Positions 14,598 to 42,662 of a DNA stretch of 64,000 bases are shown in pieces (the first letter of the stretch is position 1; every line of letters begins with the position of its first letter). The position numbers and the translations under genes are program-made. The stretch comes from an uncultured Flavobacteriales bacterium (GTDB lineage: Bacteria; Bacteroidota; Bacteroidia; Flavobacteriales_D; Crocinitomicaceae), in the NCBI GenBank assembly GCA_905480145.1, contig CAJQPA010000017.1, positions 1 through 64,000 on the forward strand, in the 5' to 3' direction. The notes beneath the pieces are model-generated. The model did not search any database. It was given only the letters and a program-made list of their open reading frames with translations, and was not told where the DNA came from.

Positions 14598-14666
14598 AAA
14601 TTAATATCAAAAGAACTATTATTGTTCATGCACTTAATTCTTAACAAGGTATAAGAACTTTTTAAC

Positions 14667-14674
14667 TAAATTTG
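14667..14674 (+). promoter_or_regulatory. Candidate -7 promoter box for prfB
   Basis: TAAATTTG fully matches TAnnTTTG. Only six bases separate it from the prfB ATG at 14681, so the mRNA would be leaderless or nearly so. It also overlaps a TTG at 14672, which is therefore unlikely to be the start. Confidence 0.4.
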
Positions 14675-14680
14675 TTCAAC

Positions 14681-15766
14681 ATGATAAATCTAGATAACCT
14701 TAGAGAATCTCGTAAGCGTATCGATGCCATTGGAGTCTATTTGAAAATAGATGAAAAGCGAATAGAACTTCAGGAAAAAGAGCTTAAAACGCAGGACCCC
14801 GAATTTTGGAACGACTCCAAAAGAGCAGAACAGCAAATGAAGACAATCCGTGGCTTAAAATTTTGGATAGATGCATTCGATAAGTTGGATAATGCATATG
14901 CTGACATTGAAGTGCTGTATGAATTTGCGAAAGAAGGAGAGGGAGAAGAAGATGAGGTAGATTCACAATTTAGAGCCTTAGAAGATGAGGTAGAAGAACT
15001 TGAGTTGAAGAACATGTTATCTGGTAAAGAAGATAGTTTAGATGCCGTTCTTCAGATTACTGCAGGCGCTGGAGGGACAGAGAGTTGTGACTGGGCCTCA
15101 ATGCTGATGCGCATGTATACGATGTGGGGCCAAAAAAATGGATTCAAAATAAAGGAATTAAATTTTCAAAATGGAGATGTTGCTGGAATAAAAACAGTAA
15201 CCATTCAATTTTCTGGAGACTTTGCTTTTGGATATTTGAAAGGTGAGAATGGGGTGCATCGTTTGGTCAGAATTTCACCTTTCGATTCGAATGCAAAACG
15301 GCACACTTCTTTTGCTTCAGTCTATGTATACCCATTGGTTGATGATACTATTGAAATAAAGGTCAACCCTGCAGATGTTACATGGGAAACATTTCGCTCT
15401 GGCGGTGCAGGTGGACAAAATGTCAACAAAGTTGAAACAGCAGTTCGATTAAGACATGCACCTTCGGGAATTATTGTAGAGAATTCAGAATCAAGATCGC
15501 AATTAGGAAACAAAGAAAAAGCAATGCAGCTACTTAAGTCACAGTTGTACGAATTAGAATATAGAGCTAGAATGGAAGCTCGTGATGAAATAGAAGCGAA
15601 TAAAAAGAAGATCGAATGGGGTTCTCAAATTAGAAATTACGTTATGCATCCATATAAGCTAGTGAAGGATGTAAGAACGGGTGTTGAAACAGGAAATGTC
15701 GATGCTGTTATGGACGGTGATCTCAATAAATTTTTGAAAGCTTATTTAATGACTTACGGAAATTAA
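14681..15766 (+). CDS. prfB: Peptide chain release factor 2
   Basis: RF2 ends translation at UAA and UGA. The tripeptide anticodon SPF is in [15 protein letters not shown] (about 200), and the GGQ motif that triggers peptide release is at 244-246 in [11 protein letters not shown]. Many bacterial prfB genes need a +1 frameshift at an early UGA; this one reads straight through from [12 protein letters not shown], with [10 protein letters not shown] at the usual frameshift position. The chosen ATG is at 14681; a TTG three codons earlier lies inside the promoter box. The arsC-like gene follows after 7 bases. Confidence 0.95.
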
Positions 15767-24748: not shown

Positions 24749-25717
24749 TTATTTTAGTCTGTTGGTTGTATACTCAACAAGGCCAAGAACTGACTTTTTA
24801 GCATCAGATTCTGGAACATCCTTGATTATTTCAATCGCTTTGTCGCGGTATTCTAACATTTTTTTATGAGCATAATCGATTCCTCCATTCTCAATGACAA
24901 GTTGTATAGCTCTTTTTACCTTCTTAGGGTTCTCATTGTGGTTTTTCACGATGTTCATTAATTCTTTTCTAACTTCTGGTGTTCCAGTTGAAAGAACATG
25001 AATTAAGGGTAAAGTCATTTTTCTTTCTCGAATATCTAGCCCCGTTGGTTTACCAATATTCCCAGGTTCTCCATAATCGAAAATATCATCTTTAATTTGA
25101 AACGCGATTCCAATAGTTTCTCCAAAACTCCGCATCTTTAAAGTCATATCACTTCTATCAACACTCAACGCACCTATTTCACAACACGTTGCGATCAAAG
25201 ATGCAGTCTTCTTTCCAATTATTTCAAAGTAAACAGTTTCGTCAATATCTAATTTTCTAGCTTTCTCAATTTGAAGTAACTCGCCTTCAGACATTTCTCT
25301 GACTGCCCTCGCTACAACTTCCAACATTGCAGTATTATTATTTTCAATGGATAAAAGAAGCACTTTTGATAACATATAATCACCAACTAAAACGGCAATT
25401 TTATTCTTCCATAGCGCATTGACCGAGAAAAAACCCCGTCTCTCATTGGCATCATCAACAACATCGTCATGAACTAAAGAAGCGGTGTGTAACAATTCTA
25501 CCAGTGTTGCAGCATCGTATGATTTATCGTTAATGTCGCCTAACATTTTAGATGTTAGAAAAATAAACATGGGCCGCATCTGCTTTCCCTTTCTTCGAAT
25601 AATGTAATGCGTAATTTTATTAAGCATAGGAACTTTAGAATTCATGCTCTTTCTAAAGCGAACTTCGAACTCATCCATTTCCACCTCAATTGGCGTCATT
25701 ATTTCTTTTACAGTCAT
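24749..25717 (-). CDS. Long-chain polyprenyl diphosphate synthase
   Basis: This trans-prenyltransferase builds the isoprenoid tail of menaquinone, or a similar chain. The first Asp-rich motif is HDDVVDD (about 85-90), and the second is IKDDIFDYG. GKQMRPMFIFLTSKML and the KKTASLIATCCEIGAL segment also match. At about 322 residues it belongs with IspB/HepS-like enzymes; chain length cannot be read from the sequence. The ATG at 25717 is preferred over the adjacent GTG. A TAnnTTTG box ends only 8 bases upstream. It heads an operon with the lipoprotein and dnaG. Confidence 0.92.
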   Translation of the reverse strand: MTVKEIMTPIEVEMDEFEVRFRKSMNSKVPMLNKITHYIIRRKGKQMRPMFIFLTSKMLGDINDKSYDAATLVELLHTASLVHDDVVDDANERRGFFSVNALWKNKIAVLVGDYMLSKVLLLSIENNNTAMLEVVARAVREMSEGELLQIEKARKLDIDETVYFEIIGKKTASLIATCCEIGALSVDRSDMTLKMRSFGETIGIAFQIKDDIFDYGEPGNIGKPTGLDIRERKMTLPLIHVLSTGTPEVRKELMNIVKNHNENPKKVKRAIQLVIENGGIDYAHKKMLEYRDKAIEIIKDVPESDAKKSVLGLVEYTTNRLK

Positions 25718-25725
25718 CACTTCAA

Positions 25726-25733
25726 CAAAGATA
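25726..25733 (-). promoter_or_regulatory. Candidate -7 promoter box for the polyprenyl synthase operon
   Basis: On the minus strand it reads TATCTTTG, a full TAnnTTTG match. It ends 8 bases before the ATG, which would leave a leader of only a few bases. Confidence 0.4.
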
Positions 25734-25819: not shown

Positions 25820-26896
25820 TTAGCTTTTCATGGCTCTATCCGATTTAAGAATAGCGTCATTTTTATTTGCGAGTTGGCCACAGGCTGCATCAATGTCTTT
25901 ACCTCTGCTACGTCGAACATGAACAATGATGTTTCTATCTTCTAAATATTTGGCAAAAGCATCCGTTTTGGCTTTGGTCGTTTGTTGAAATATTCCATCA
26001 TCAATAGGATTGTATTCGATGATATTTATTTTACAAGGAACACATTTAGCAAAAGCTGCCAGTTCTTGAGCGTCCTCTAGTGAGTCATTGAAATCCTTAA
26101 ATATGATGTATTCAAAGGTAACACGGGTTCCTGTTTTTGCATGGAAATAAACCAAAGCTTCTCGAAGTGCGTCAATATTATTGGAATCATTAATCTCCAT
26201 GATCTCACTTCGTTTTCTGTCATTTGCGGCATGAAGAGAAAGTGCTAAATTGAATTTGACTTCGTCATCGCCTAATTTTTTAATCATTTTGGCAATGCCC
26301 GCTGTAGAAACGGTGATTCTTTTAGGAGAAATTCCAAGTCCATCTTCAGAAGTAATTCGGTCAATTGAGCGCAGCATATTGTTATAATTGAGTAACGGCT
26401 CGCCCATTCCCATGTATACAATGTTGGATAAATTTGTTTTGTAACGATTTACCGCCTGGTCTCTTAAATAAACAACTTGATCAACAATCTCCCCAGCGGA
26501 AAGATTTCGCATCAGTTTAAGTTTTCCGGTAGCACAGAATTTACACGCTAAACTACAACCAATTTGAGAAGAAATACAAGCTGTGGTTCTTGATGAGGTC
26601 GGAATTAGTACTCCTTCAATAACTTTGTTTTCATCTACACTAAACGCACATTTTATTGTCTTGTCAGAACTAATTTGCTGGTCTTTCAGTTCAATATGAT
26701 CAATGTAGAAATGAGCATCTATTTTCTCGCGAAGAGAAATAGACAAATTTGTCATATCCTCGAAAGTATGTGCATCTTTTTGCCATAACCATTCATAAAT
26801 CTGAGTGCCACGAAAAGGCTTTTCTCCCATTTCTGAAAGAGCTTTTTTAATCTCCTTCAAGGAAAGATTACGAATATTGATTTTGTCTTGCTTCAT
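25820..26896 (-). CDS. rlmN: 23S rRNA (A2503-C2) methyltransferase
   Basis: RlmN is a radical-SAM enzyme that methylates A2503 of 23S rRNA, and A37 of some tRNAs. The iron-sulfur Cys are C114, C118 and C121 in IGCSLACKFCATG. The C-terminal resolving Cys is in RGKDIDAACGQLA (about 339), and YMGMGEPLLNY and VSTAGI are also typical. At 358 residues it is the usual size. It follows batE by 25 bases on the same strand but has its own TAnnTTTG box in that gap. Confidence 0.96.
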   Translation of the reverse strand: MKQDKINIRNLSLKEIKKALSEMGEKPFRGTQIYEWLWQKDAHTFEDMTNLSISLREKIDAHFYIDHIELKDQQISSDKTIKCAFSVDENKVIEGVLIPTSSRTTACISSQIGCSLACKFCATGKLKLMRNLSAGEIVDQVVYLRDQAVNRYKTNLSNIVYMGMGEPLLNYNNMLRSIDRITSEDGLGISPKRITVSTAGIAKMIKKLGDDEVKFNLALSLHAANDRKRSEIMEINDSNNIDALREALVYFHAKTGTRVTFEYIIFKDFNDSLEDAQELAAFAKCVPCKINIIEYNPIDDGIFQQTTKAKTDAFAKYLEDRNIIVHVRRSRGKDIDAACGQLANKNDAILKSDRAMKS

Positions 26897-26905
26897 TGCT
26901 TACCG

Positions 26906-26913
26906 CAAAGATA
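26906..26913 (-). promoter_or_regulatory. Candidate -7 promoter box for rlmN
   Basis: On the minus strand it reads TATCTTTG followed by C. It is 9 bases from the rlmN ATG, so the leader would be very short. It gives rlmN a start independent of the Bat operon. Confidence 0.4.
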
Positions 26914-40271: not shown

Positions 40272-41405
40272 TTAACTAATGACTTTTATCAATTCTTTTA
40301 CTGAAGATGCAGATTTTTTTGCTTCTTCTAGAGAAGAGTTAGTGACCGTGATATGACCCATTTTTCGATTGGGTTTTGTTTGAGTTTTACCATATAGATG
40401 AACGTAAACACAAGGTAGAGAAATTGTCTTTTCTAGACCATGATAAATGGCTTTTCCGAAATGGTTTTCAGCCCCCAATAAGTTTATCATTGCACCATAT
40501 CTTATCATTTCAGTTGATCCAAGTGGTAAGTTGAGTATCGATCTTAAATGTTGCTCAAATTGAGAAGTAGCATTACATTCAATTGTGTGATGTCCACTAT
40601 TATGAGGTCTTGGTGCTATTTCATTGATTAAGAGGTCTCCATTCTCCAATAAGAAAAATTCAACAGCCAATATCCCAATCATATCTAATTTTTCGATAAC
40701 ATTTATGGCTAATTTAACAGCCCTTTGCTCAATCTCATCCGTGACATTAGCAGGAGAGAATAGGAACTCAACTAAATTTACTTCATTAAATTGACATTCA
40801 ACTGTTTGATATGCCTCTGTTTCGCCATTTTCATTTCGTGCAACAATGACTGATAGTTCCTTGGTAAATGGGACTAATTCTTCTATTATAGAGGCTCCCT
40901 TGAAAAGCGAATTTAAATCTGCTTTAGATTTAACGACTTGAACTCCTTGACCATCATAACCACCTGTTCGTATTTTCTGAACAAAGGGAAGTTTAGCTTC
41001 CAAATTGTCAATATTTTCTGTAAAACTAAATTCAGAAGTAGGAAGATCATTTTTTTTGTAAAACTCTTTTTGAATTCCTTTATCCTTAATTATTTCTAAA
41101 ACTCTCGCTTGAGGATAGACTTTTACTCCTTGTTTTTCTAATTGATATAAAGCGTCGATATTAACATTTTCAATCTCAACGGTTAAAACATCCAGTGATG
41201 CTCCAAATTTCATCACATCATCAAAGTTTGTGATATCCCCCAATGTAAAAGACGTTGCGCTTGATGCGCTCGGCGCGTCTGCATCATTTTCCATGATGTG
41301 AACATCTATATTGTAATTGATCGCTGCTTGAATAAACATTCGTCCTAATTGACCACCACCTAAAATACCAAGACGGTGATCTTTGCCGATAAGATTCTTT
41401 TTCAT
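40272..41405 (-). CDS. purK: N5-carboxyaminoimidazole ribonucleotide synthase
   Basis: PurK carboxylates AIR with bicarbonate and ATP, just before PurE. It is an ATP-grasp enzyme: LGILGGGQLGRM at the start, VQKIRTGGYDGQGVQVV for the ATP lid, EFFLLENGDLLINEIAPRPHNSGHHTIE for the metal site. The start at 41405 (MKKNLIGKDHRLG) gives 377 residues. The open frame reaches 41522 but overlaps the divergent promoter and gene, so the longer form is rejected. A TAnnTTTG box ends four bases from this ATG. It is divergent from the HPRT-Adk gene, another purine enzyme. Confidence 0.95.
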   Translation of the reverse strand: MKKNLIGKDHRLGILGGGQLGRMFIQAAINYNIDVHIMENDADAPSASSATSFTLGDITNFDDVMKFGASLDVLTVEIENVNIDALYQLEKQGVKVYPQARVLEIIKDKGIQKEFYKKNDLPTSEFSFTENIDNLEAKLPFVQKIRTGGYDGQGVQVVKSKADLNSLFKGASIIEELVPFTKELSVIVARNENGETEAYQTVECQFNEVNLVEFLFSPANVTDEIEQRAVKLAINVIEKLDMIGILAVEFFLLENGDLLINEIAPRPHNSGHHTIECNATSQFEQHLRSILNLPLGSTEMIRYGAMINLLGAENHFGKAIYHGLEKTISLPCVYVHLYGKTQTKPNRKMGHITVTNSSLEEAKKSASSVKELIKVIS

Positions 41406-41409
41406 AGTA

Positions 41410-41417
41410 CAAAGATA
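41410..41417 (-). promoter_or_regulatory. Candidate -7 promoter box for purK
   Basis: On the minus strand it reads TATCTTTG, a full match. Only four bases lie between it and the ATG at 41405, which would make the transcript leaderless. Confidence 0.4.
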
Positions 41418-41513: not shown

Positions 41514-42662
41514 ATGATTCAAGTTTTAGATAAAAAATTCGAGGTGTTTATCACCAAGGAAGAATTAAGTAGAGAAGTAGCTTCGTTGGGTCAAATACTC
41601 AATGAAGATTACAAGGGAGAGGAAGTGATTTTTATAGCTGTCTTAAACGGATCTTTTATGTTCGCATCTGATTTAATGAAAGAAATTGATCTTATATCTG
41701 AAATTTCTTTCATTAAAATGAGCTCTTATCAAGGGACTGAATCGACGGGTCGCGTTGATGAATTAATAGGGTTGAAAAATGATCTGAAAGATAAACATGT
41801 CGTAATCATCGAGGATATTATTGATTCAGGAATTACAATTGATAAAATCAATTCTTTGCTTCAGATGGAATCTCCAAAATCAATAAAGACCTGCACATTA
41901 TTATATAAACCAGAGGCTTTTAAAGGGCAACATAAACCTCATTATATTGGTTTTTCTATTCCAAATGCATTTGTAGTTGGTTATGGACTGGATTATGATG
42001 AAAAAGGAAGAAATCTTGATGCCATTTATCAAATCAAAGAAGAAAATAAAACCGGTTTTCAACTAAATATGAATAATAACACTGATCAAATGTTAAATAT
42101 AGTTTTATTCGGTCCTCCAGGTGCTGGTAAGGGAACGCAATCAACAAAATTGATGGAGCAATATGGACTAGTTCATTTATCAACTGGAGATATTTTTAGA
42201 GCAAATATTAAAGGTGAAACTGAGCTAGGTATATTAGCTAAAAGTTATATTGACAAAGGGCAACTCGTTCCGGATGAAGTGACGATTGACTTGTTGAAAT
42301 CAGAAGTGTTAAAATATGAGAATCCTAAAGGATTTATTTTTGACGGATTTCCAAGGACTAACAAGCAGGCCGATGCTTTAGATGCCTTCTTGAAAGAAAT
42401 TGGAACAGGAATTTCACAAATGATTTCCTTGGATGTTGAAGAAGAAGAGTTAAAGACTAGATTGGCCAATAGAGCCAAAGATAGCGGAAGAATTGATGAT
42501 GCTGATCCCGAAGTGATTCAGAAAAGAATAAATGTTTACAGAAGTGAAACGGCTCCTGTAAAAGAGTATTATGCAGATCAAAATAAATGGATGAAGATCA
42601 ATGGGTTGGGAACTGTAGAAGAAATTACTTCTCGCTTGTTTGAGGCTGTAGCATCTTTATAA
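41514..42662 (+). CDS. adk: Fusion of hypoxanthine phosphoribosyltransferase and adenylate kinase
   Basis: One 382-residue frame joins two purine enzymes. Residues 1-178 are an HPRT-type phosphoribosyltransferase: VLNGSFMFASDLM, the PRPP motif VVIIEDIIDSGITI (about 96-109) and FVVGYGLDYDEKGRNL. After a linker (about 179-192), residues 193-382 are a full adenylate kinase: Walker A GPPGAGKGTQ (200-209), HLSTGDIFRANI, FDGFPRTNKQADAL and the short lid NRAKDSGRIDD. HPRT makes IMP/GMP from free bases; Adk balances AMP, ADP and ATP. An internal ATG at 42069 could in principle yield free Adk. The partner purK is divergent. Confidence 0.94.
   Translation: MIQVLDKKFEVFITKEELSREVASLGQILNEDYKGEEVIFIAVLNGSFMFASDLMKEIDLISEISFIKMSSYQGTESTGRVDELIGLKNDLKDKHVVIIEDIIDSGITIDKINSLLQMESPKSIKTCTLLYKPEAFKGQHKPHYIGFSIPNAFVVGYGLDYDEKGRNLDAIYQIKEENKTGFQLNMNNNTDQMLNIVLFGPPGAGKGTQSTKLMEQYGLVHLSTGDIFRANIKGETELGILAKSYIDKGQLVPDEVTIDLLKSEVLKYENPKGFIFDGFPRTNKQADALDAFLKEIGTGISQMISLDVEEEELKTRLANRAKDSGRIDDADPEVIQKRINVYRSETAPVKEYYADQNKWMKINGLGTVEEITSRLFEAVASL

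Follow-up and report, generated by a model that had tools for sequence, protein, structure and literature searches.

The position of the promoter box of purK raises the question of whether some genes of the Bacteroidota are transcribed into mRNAs with practically no leader. In the 64,000-nucleotide stretch of DNA analysed here (the window), purK lies on the reverse strand (40272-41405) and encodes a 5-(carboxyamino)imidazole ribonucleotide synthase of 377 residues (TIGR01161, above the curated cut-off), 68-70% identical to PurK of three MAG records, two labelled Crocinitomicaceae and one Flavobacteriales. Over the compared stretch the purK starts of these three records equal those of the relatives G016, G024 and G022, which are placed in the same genus; Crocinitomicaceae belongs as a family to the Flavobacteriales, in the Bacteroidota. 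Its -7 promoter box, TATCTTTG, is found at 41410-41417 and only the four bases TACT separate it from the ATG (41403-41405), the predicted 5' end of the mRNA, so that the fourth base after the box is a T and the fifth is the A of the start codon. On the other side purK is divergent from a fused hypoxanthine phosphoribosyltransferase-adenylate kinase gene (41514-42662), whose own box lies 24 bases before its ATG. The initial annotation had described four full TAnnTTTG boxes, ending 4, 6, 9 and 8 bases before the ATG of purK, prfB, rlmN and a polyprenyl synthase gene respectively, and a direct reading of the sequence finds all of them at these places.

The forward-strand gene prfB (14681-15766) encodes release factor 2 (361 residues, TIGR00020 above the curated cut-off) in a single open frame without the programmed frameshift. 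Its box TAAATTTG (14667-14674, forward strand) ends six bases before the ATG at 14681 and directly 5' of it lies TTTTTAAC (14659-14666, forward strand), which is conserved together with the box in the genus. The other two genes are neighbours on the reverse strand, 99 bases apart. The gene rlmN (25820-26896; dual-specificity RNA methyltransferase, 358 residues, TIGR00048 above the curated cut-off) has TATCTTTG at 26906-26913, nine bases before the ATG at 26896, and the polyprenyl (isoprenyl diphosphate) synthase gene (24749-25720) has TATCTTTG at 25726-25733, eight bases from the ATG at 25717. The product of the latter matches 16 NCBIfam isoprenyl-diphosphate synthase models (best E-value 4e-65), none of them above its curated cut-off; the assignment is clear at the level of the family. 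Adjoining the ATG of this gene (25715-25717) there is an in-frame GTG (25718-25720), five bases after the box, which is the probable start codon. All four boxes fit TAHHTTTG, the refined form of the -7 consensus of the Bacteroidota primary sigma factor.

In Flavobacterium johnsoniae many transcripts are reported to start 4-5 nt after the TAnnTTTG -7 box (PMC6847099), and in Flavobacterium psychrophilum the box is placed at -12 to -5 relative to the start point (PMC9723704). Given this published spacing, an mRNA with the box 4-5 bases before its start codon is predicted to begin at the AUG or one base before it. The mRNA of purK, and that of the polyprenyl synthase gene if it starts at the GTG, should be strictly leaderless, while the predicted leader should be 0-2 bases for prfB and about 3-5 bases for rlmN, or about 4-5 at its spacing of nine in the window.

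Counted genome-wide against shuffled sequence, the distances between box and ATG are far above chance at 4-5 bases in two genomes. The sample of the own genome comprised the window and 60 further stretches (1,201,561 of 2,441,114 bases, 63 contigs), and that of the congener G015 1.20 Mb. Open frames of at least 90 codons were taken by a simple longest-frame rule, and the distance was measured from TAHHTTTG to the first ATG in the 968 of 990 own frames and 907 of 930 G015 frames that had an ATG start, at least 80 codons and 100 bases upstream. The chance level is the mean of 50 dinucleotide shuffles, about 0.6 boxes per position. A box at 4-5 bases was found in 33 of the 968 own upstream regions (shuffle mean 1.22) and in 37 of the 907 of G015 (1.20). 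At distances 0-3 there were 8 boxes in the own genome against 2.38 in the shuffles, and likewise 8 against about 2.4 in G015; at 6-13 there were 11 against 4.64 and 19 against 4.48, respectively. In the own genome distances 8-9 gave 3 against 1.04, and distances 14-30 gave 107 against 9.32.

The distribution is thus bimodal in both genomes, a thinly populated valley at 6-13 separating the sharp peak at 4-5 from a broad one that begins at 14. Base by base, the own genome has 18 boxes at 4 and 15 at 5, followed by 4, 1, 1, 2, 1, 0, 1 and 1 at 6-13 and a broad rise from 14, and G015 has 29 at 4 and 8 at 5, followed by 4, 2, 3, 2, 1, 4, 1 and 2. The share of the shuffle-subtracted box excess within 60 bases of the start that falls at 4-5 is about 17% in the own genome and 23% in G015; roughly one sixth to one quarter of the consensus promoters near a gene in the genus would then belong to the leaderless class. 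The spacing of purK falls on the peak and that of prfB on its shoulder. The box of rlmN, as well as that of the polyprenyl synthase gene if counted to its ATG, is in the valley, and the support for these two comes from conservation and not from the count; counted to the GTG, the polyprenyl synthase box also lies on the peak. In the whole own genome the pattern TAHHTTTGN{4,5}ATG has 131 matches, its reverse has 49, and the 10-11 spacing, which is in the same codon phase, has 83. Such a count without gene context is weaker evidence than the former one, because the 8-9 spacing also exceeds its reversed control (111 against 66).

The four genes keep a box near the start in most of the genus loci examined, in a set of 25 genomes including the own one. 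For purK, TAnnTTTR was found in 22 of 22 loci, 21 of them with TATCTTTG and one with TATCTTTA, at a spacing of 4 in 16 loci, 5 in five and 6 in one; G009, with no match, and G006 and G014, with fragments only, were left out. In prfB, TAnnTTTG is present in 18 of 21 loci (spacing 6 in 16 and 7 in two), four of the 18 having a G inside the box; of the remaining three loci two have TAnnTTTA at 4 and one has no box, and no whole locus came from G003, G005, G008 and G009. The rlmN box occurs in 21 of 22 counted loci at spacings of 4-15, 13 of the 21 at 7-9. In one rlmN locus (L132) the match starts only at residue 28, with the preceding residues on another contig, and that of G001 (L139), with an in-frame stop and no box near the start taken, was not counted.

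The polyprenyl synthase gene has TATATTTG or TATCTTTG 5-9 bases before the chosen ATG in 24 of 24 loci. Another ATG directly precedes the chosen one in 12 of these. The distance from the box to the first in-frame start codon is 4-6 bases in 17 loci, four of them with GTG, and 2 (three loci), 7 (three) or 8 (one) in the other seven. The polyprenyl synthase of the window probably starts at its GTG, to judge from this spacing. Furthermore, all 24 counted loci of dnaX, a class member that is not in the window, have the box at a spacing of 4-6 from the ATG, and a 25th (L305) has it at 6. The motif TTAT[CTA]AACA, which resembles a DnaA box, occurs no more than 60 bases upstream of dnaX in 20 of the 24 genus loci (L276-L299, narrow pattern). 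The sequence upstream of the boxes is much less constant: in purK the fraction of the majority base is 0.48 in the 11-40 bases before the box against 0.99 for the fixed box positions, and across the examined genes the former ranges from 0.41 to 0.56. Since the fractions for the box preselect loci with a box, the locus counts are the fair measure.

The class as a whole is mostly kept as well. Among 349 reciprocal best pairs between the own genome and G015, 318 were used and 31 dropped (no matching ATG or no room upstream), with the class widened here to boxes 3-6 bases from the start. In 21 pairs at least one partner is leaderless by its box; 10 of these have an exact box in both partners, nine differ by one mismatch, one by two and one by three. 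As background, a box within one mismatch at the same place was seen in 15 of 224 pairs without boxes and in two of 37 leadered pairs. The mean change of spacing was 0.3 base in the 10 leaderless pairs against 3.2 in the 37 leadered ones. The genes kept in the class include purK, dnaX, recF, sufS, rimO and menA; dnaB, mnmA and dusB are members in the own genome and were left out of the comparison. In one pair the own gene, located in L184, has instead an exact box at 28 bases while its G015 partner is leaderless by its box, and a real switch between the leaderless and the leadered state is possible there.

Outside the genus the picture is mixed, the arrangement of purK and rlmN being lost or changed in several other families. 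The purK box lies at 4-6 in five of eight loci from other families of the order (L078, L081, L083, L084, L085) and not in L079, L080 and L082. It is at 4 in a Flavobacteriia MAG (L027). Of five Flavobacteriaceae-labelled records, three have exact boxes 10-14 bases away (L042, L045, L046) and in two (L047, L055) the box was not found, as in a Capnocytophaga record (L043); the Bacteroidales-labelled L030, L035 and L036 have no near purK box. Among seven rlmN loci of other families the box is at 4-5 in L141 and L142 and TAATTTTA is at 4 in L143, the remaining four having no near box or no usable start. For dnaX the box was found at 6 in L300 and L302, at 10 in L301 and L304, and not in L303.

The bases that follow the box give a further indication of where transcription would start. 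In the two genomes together, 59 of 70 class members carry a pyrimidine as the fourth base after the box. The corresponding proportion is 137 of 253 for leadered promoters (Fisher 3.4e-6) and 381 of 756 for boxes lying within genes (2.7e-8). Split by distance, 37 of the 47 genes at 4 bases and 22 of the 23 at 5 bases have C or T there, so the pyrimidine keeps its register relative to the box, not relative to the ATG. In the distance-4 genes this pyrimidine directly precedes the A of the AUG. In those at distance 5 the fifth base is a purine, for a one-base leader, in 13 of 23, and in the other 10 a pyrimidine is followed by the A of the AUG. The in-register pyrimidine points to a focused start point. 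In the window it is present for purK and rlmN and absent for prfB and the polyprenyl synthase gene; among the genus loci it was found in 16 of 22 for purK, 12 of 20 for prfB, 21 of 21 for rlmN, 16 of 24 for polyprenyl synthase and 21 of 24 for dnaX. In 13 of the 21 rlmN loci a purine stands beside it, which at the usual spacings corresponds to leaders of about 3-5 bases. The leaders of 0-5 bases predicted by the initial annotation are supported by the box positions, the published spacing, the genome-wide peak at 4-5, the conservation in the genus and, for the class as a whole, this pyrimidine.

No clear step from pyrimidine to purine marks the inferred start of the leadered promoters. A -33 element (TTG or TTTG) was not enriched 10-31 bases before the class boxes (n=70), and was faint at 19-20 bases before the leadered ones (n=241). 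The element is described as much less evident in F. johnsoniae too (PMC6847099), so its absence does not exclude that the class belongs to the primary-sigma promoters. Two other base preferences were set aside as evidence: A is missing at -6 in the class as a consequence of the box itself, and its lower frequency at -3 (22 of 70 class members against 134 of 253 leadered promoters, p=0.0018) is partly forced by the preferences after the box.

The genes of the class stand first in their transcription units. Of the 33 members in the own sample, 20 have a divergent neighbour, 10 a distant same-strand gene and three a close one; the corresponding numbers for 32 members in G015 are 16, 14 and two. 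Among genes without a box, 306 of 714 in the own genome and 285 of 688 in G015 have a close same-strand neighbour. As for function, 40 own candidates were listed, the criterion being an in-frame ATG, GTG or TTG among the first 30 codons of an open frame with a box 4-5 bases in front of it (purK is missing from it, its open frame extending further upstream), and 39 were scanned with profiles at a threshold of 1e-30 (1e-40 for one batch), the 40th being the polyprenyl synthase gene. A family match was obtained for 20 of the 40. The label of housekeeping genes given to the four in the initial annotation suits them and many of the nameable members, with the other 20 candidates having no family name. 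RNA- or ribosome-modifying enzymes account for five of the 40 (MnmA, RimO and DusB above their curated cut-offs, QueE and TrmH as best matches below theirs) and for one of 30 leadered genes scanned, which were the first 33 of a shuffled list of 105 minus three in the window; these numbers are too few to claim a functional bias toward RNA or ribosome modification. Possible leaderless starts other than ATG, four bases after a box, were also seen: TTG for a dihydropteroate synthase gene (L014, 8844-9719) and a DarB-like ketosynthase gene (L182, 220-1377, where the TTG adjoins an ATG), and GTG for two unnamed genes (L001, 1546-2589, and L237, 7176-7832).

The four genes of the window belong with a discrete class having the box 4-5 bases before the start codon and mostly kept in orthologues. 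We consider it highly probable that the boxes are the -7 elements of ordinary Bacteroidota primary-sigma promoters and that RNA polymerase starts on the start codon or within a few bases of it. In this mechanism the primary sigma factor would set the start point 4-5 bases after the box; with the start point on the start codon the mRNA would be leaderless, and the ribosome may take the 5'-terminal AUG or GUG without any upstream contact, by analogy with leaderless initiation elsewhere, where the ribosome binds to a 5'-terminal start codon (summarised in PMC10783764). For the 16S tail, a pattern requiring CCTCC matched in 16 of the 60 genomes of the order and not in the own genome, the other 44 being uninformative; a pattern taken from other bacteria matched none of the 60.

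Several other readings of the boxes have to be weighed against this one. Single boxes are common in AT-rich DNA, 71 on both strands of the window and 756 inside the sampled genes of the two genomes, and chance matches could be suspected; however, 33 and 37 boxes stand against 1.2 expected, in a sharp two-base peak in each of the two genomes, and box and spacing are conserved genus-wide. The shuffle count and the conservation refute the chance reading, to which we attach a next to negligible probability. The promoters could also be real and the true start codons lie further downstream, giving ordinary leaders. Indeed, purK has an in-frame ATG 66 bases downstream and the genome-wide count used the first ATG of each frame. 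Against this, 21 of the 22 genus loci of purK match from residue 1 on, and the later ATG falls inside the matched region, where it encodes the M of GGGQLGRM in the window protein. Furthermore, no second in-frame ATG occurs within 100 bases in the window prfB, the dnaX product starts with M-S/G-D/E-F in nearly all genus loci, and a peak two bases wide is hard to produce from wrong start codons. Later starts are thus very improbable.

A different objection is that the near promoters are real and most transcription comes from a second promoter upstream, with the leaderless form being minor. Read-through is possible between rlmN and the polyprenyl synthase gene, lying 99 bases apart on the same strand, and secondary promoters without the consensus would be missed by the box search; on the other hand, 20 of the 33 own members face a divergent neighbour and only three follow a close same-strand gene, and we regard this alternative as unlikely. 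Slightly less so, but still doubtful, is the reading that the adjacency of box and start codon reflects compact intergenic spaces with no selection on leader length. Streamlining is plausible, with those same 20 members in divergent intergenic regions, yet compaction alone should also fill the distances 6-13, which are sparse in both genomes while 4-5 are full, and the pyrimidine kept at a fixed distance from the box indicates a focused start point. The preferred reading remains that of ordinary primary-sigma promoters whose start point would fall on or beside the start codon.

The valley at 6-13 suggests that 2-9 bases is a disfavoured leader length, to which rlmN and prfB would be conserved exceptions. 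We tentatively propose, as a possibility on which we would not yet rely, that part of the Bacteroidota including this genus has two classes of initiation, namely a stable leaderless set with a selected, focused start and a leadered set with leaders of at least about 9 bases, lengths of 2-9 being avoided. As to where in the phylum the class occurs, box-N4,5-ATG was compared with box-N10,11-ATG, in the same codon phase, in 148 genomes of 33 families, as only a pointer, for these counts are of patterns without gene context. An excess of the former at p<0.001, uncorrected for the number of tests, was found in 24 of the 148 genomes. Family f32 gave 337 against 72 (8 of 8 genomes at p<0.001), f19 63 against 14, f9 148 against 55, the own family f1 294 against 142 (2 of 2), f13 872 against 540 (5 of 5) and f16 2083 against 1468 (3 of 14); f24 (1369 against 1347), f31 (1373 against 1208) and f25 (530 against 462) had none in 61 genomes. 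In f31 (18 genomes) and f24 (13 genomes) box-N8,9-ATG was more frequent than box-N4,5-ATG (1936 against 1373 and 1581 against 1369, respectively), the reverse of the own family and perhaps a different preferred leader length.

The prfB gene has peculiarities of its own. All 21 genus loci are without the programmed frameshift, the match beginning at residue 1 with no stop (L106 is cut at the far end), and prfB of L108 and L112 also matches from residue 1; a TATCTTTGAC- or TACCTTTGAC-type site immediately precedes the start of the match in seven loci from other families (L107, L109-L111, L113-L115). A loose form of TTTTTAAC precedes the prfB box in 18 of the 21 genus loci, and in many of these promoters an element like GTTCTnAACA lies about 12 bases before TTTTTAAC (14635-14674 in the window). 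The full TTTTTAACTANNTTTG occurs once in the own genome. The conserved element of the prfB promoter might serve as a control point in place of the lost frameshift.

The ribosomes of the Bacteroidota make little use of Shine-Dalgarno sequences, and the leaderless mRNAs of the phylum have been passed over as rarities. A sharply defined class, predictable from DNA and retained in orthologues, is a natural test set for leader-free initiation by these ribosomes and for whether leaders of 2-9 bases are disfavoured. The position of the box also corrects start codons, as for the probable GTG of the polyprenyl synthase gene. If the proposal of two classes holds, the leaderless state might itself be regulated, for example allowing translation of these genes while leadered initiation is limited, by analogy with leaderless initiation elsewhere.

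Mycobacteria have a large class of leaderless transcripts, including GUG starts, in another phylum and with another promoter than here. In the Bacteroidota leaderless mRNA is itself known and reported to be rare: 5.5% of the mapped mRNAs of F. psychrophilum are given as leaderless (PMC9723704), and 3.7% of the 5' UTRs of Bacteroides thetaiotaomicron as shorter than 10 nt (PMC7366714). For F. johnsoniae leaders are reported as longer than 10 nt in 87% of the predicted transcripts with a probable promoter (PMC6847099), and the leaderless class is thus a minority there. The open-access papers searched yielded no recognised report of a conserved leaderless class in the Bacteroidota, and both the share of the class among consensus promoters (about 17-23%) and its conservation look unreported in them.

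A promoter box near the start codon was likewise read as evidence of leaderless genes, termed TA-led, in a survey of 2011 (PMC3160421), whose reference was a TATAAT-like -10 box instead of TAnnTTTG. Leaderless genes were also predicted from the distance between box and ATG, and compared among species, in the Epsilonproteobacteria (PMC3847290), where C. jejuni and H. pylori are reported to share only three of 23, with virtually no conservation within Helicobacter and agreement between near relatives such as C. jejuni and C. coli. In contrast to that fast turnover, 19 of 21 pairs here keep an exact or one-mismatch box at 3-6 bases, in a comparison whose species divergence is unmatched to that of PMC3847290. 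Nearest to the present case are F. psychrophilum, F. johnsoniae and B. thetaiotaomicron, in the same phylum, with the same TAnnTTTG box and a start a few bases after it. Compared with what is reported for these species, the genus studied here has a discrete class, conserved in orthologues and amounting to 17% and 23% of the box excess in its two genomes, percentages that refer to predicted boxes and are not strictly comparable with those from mapped starts.
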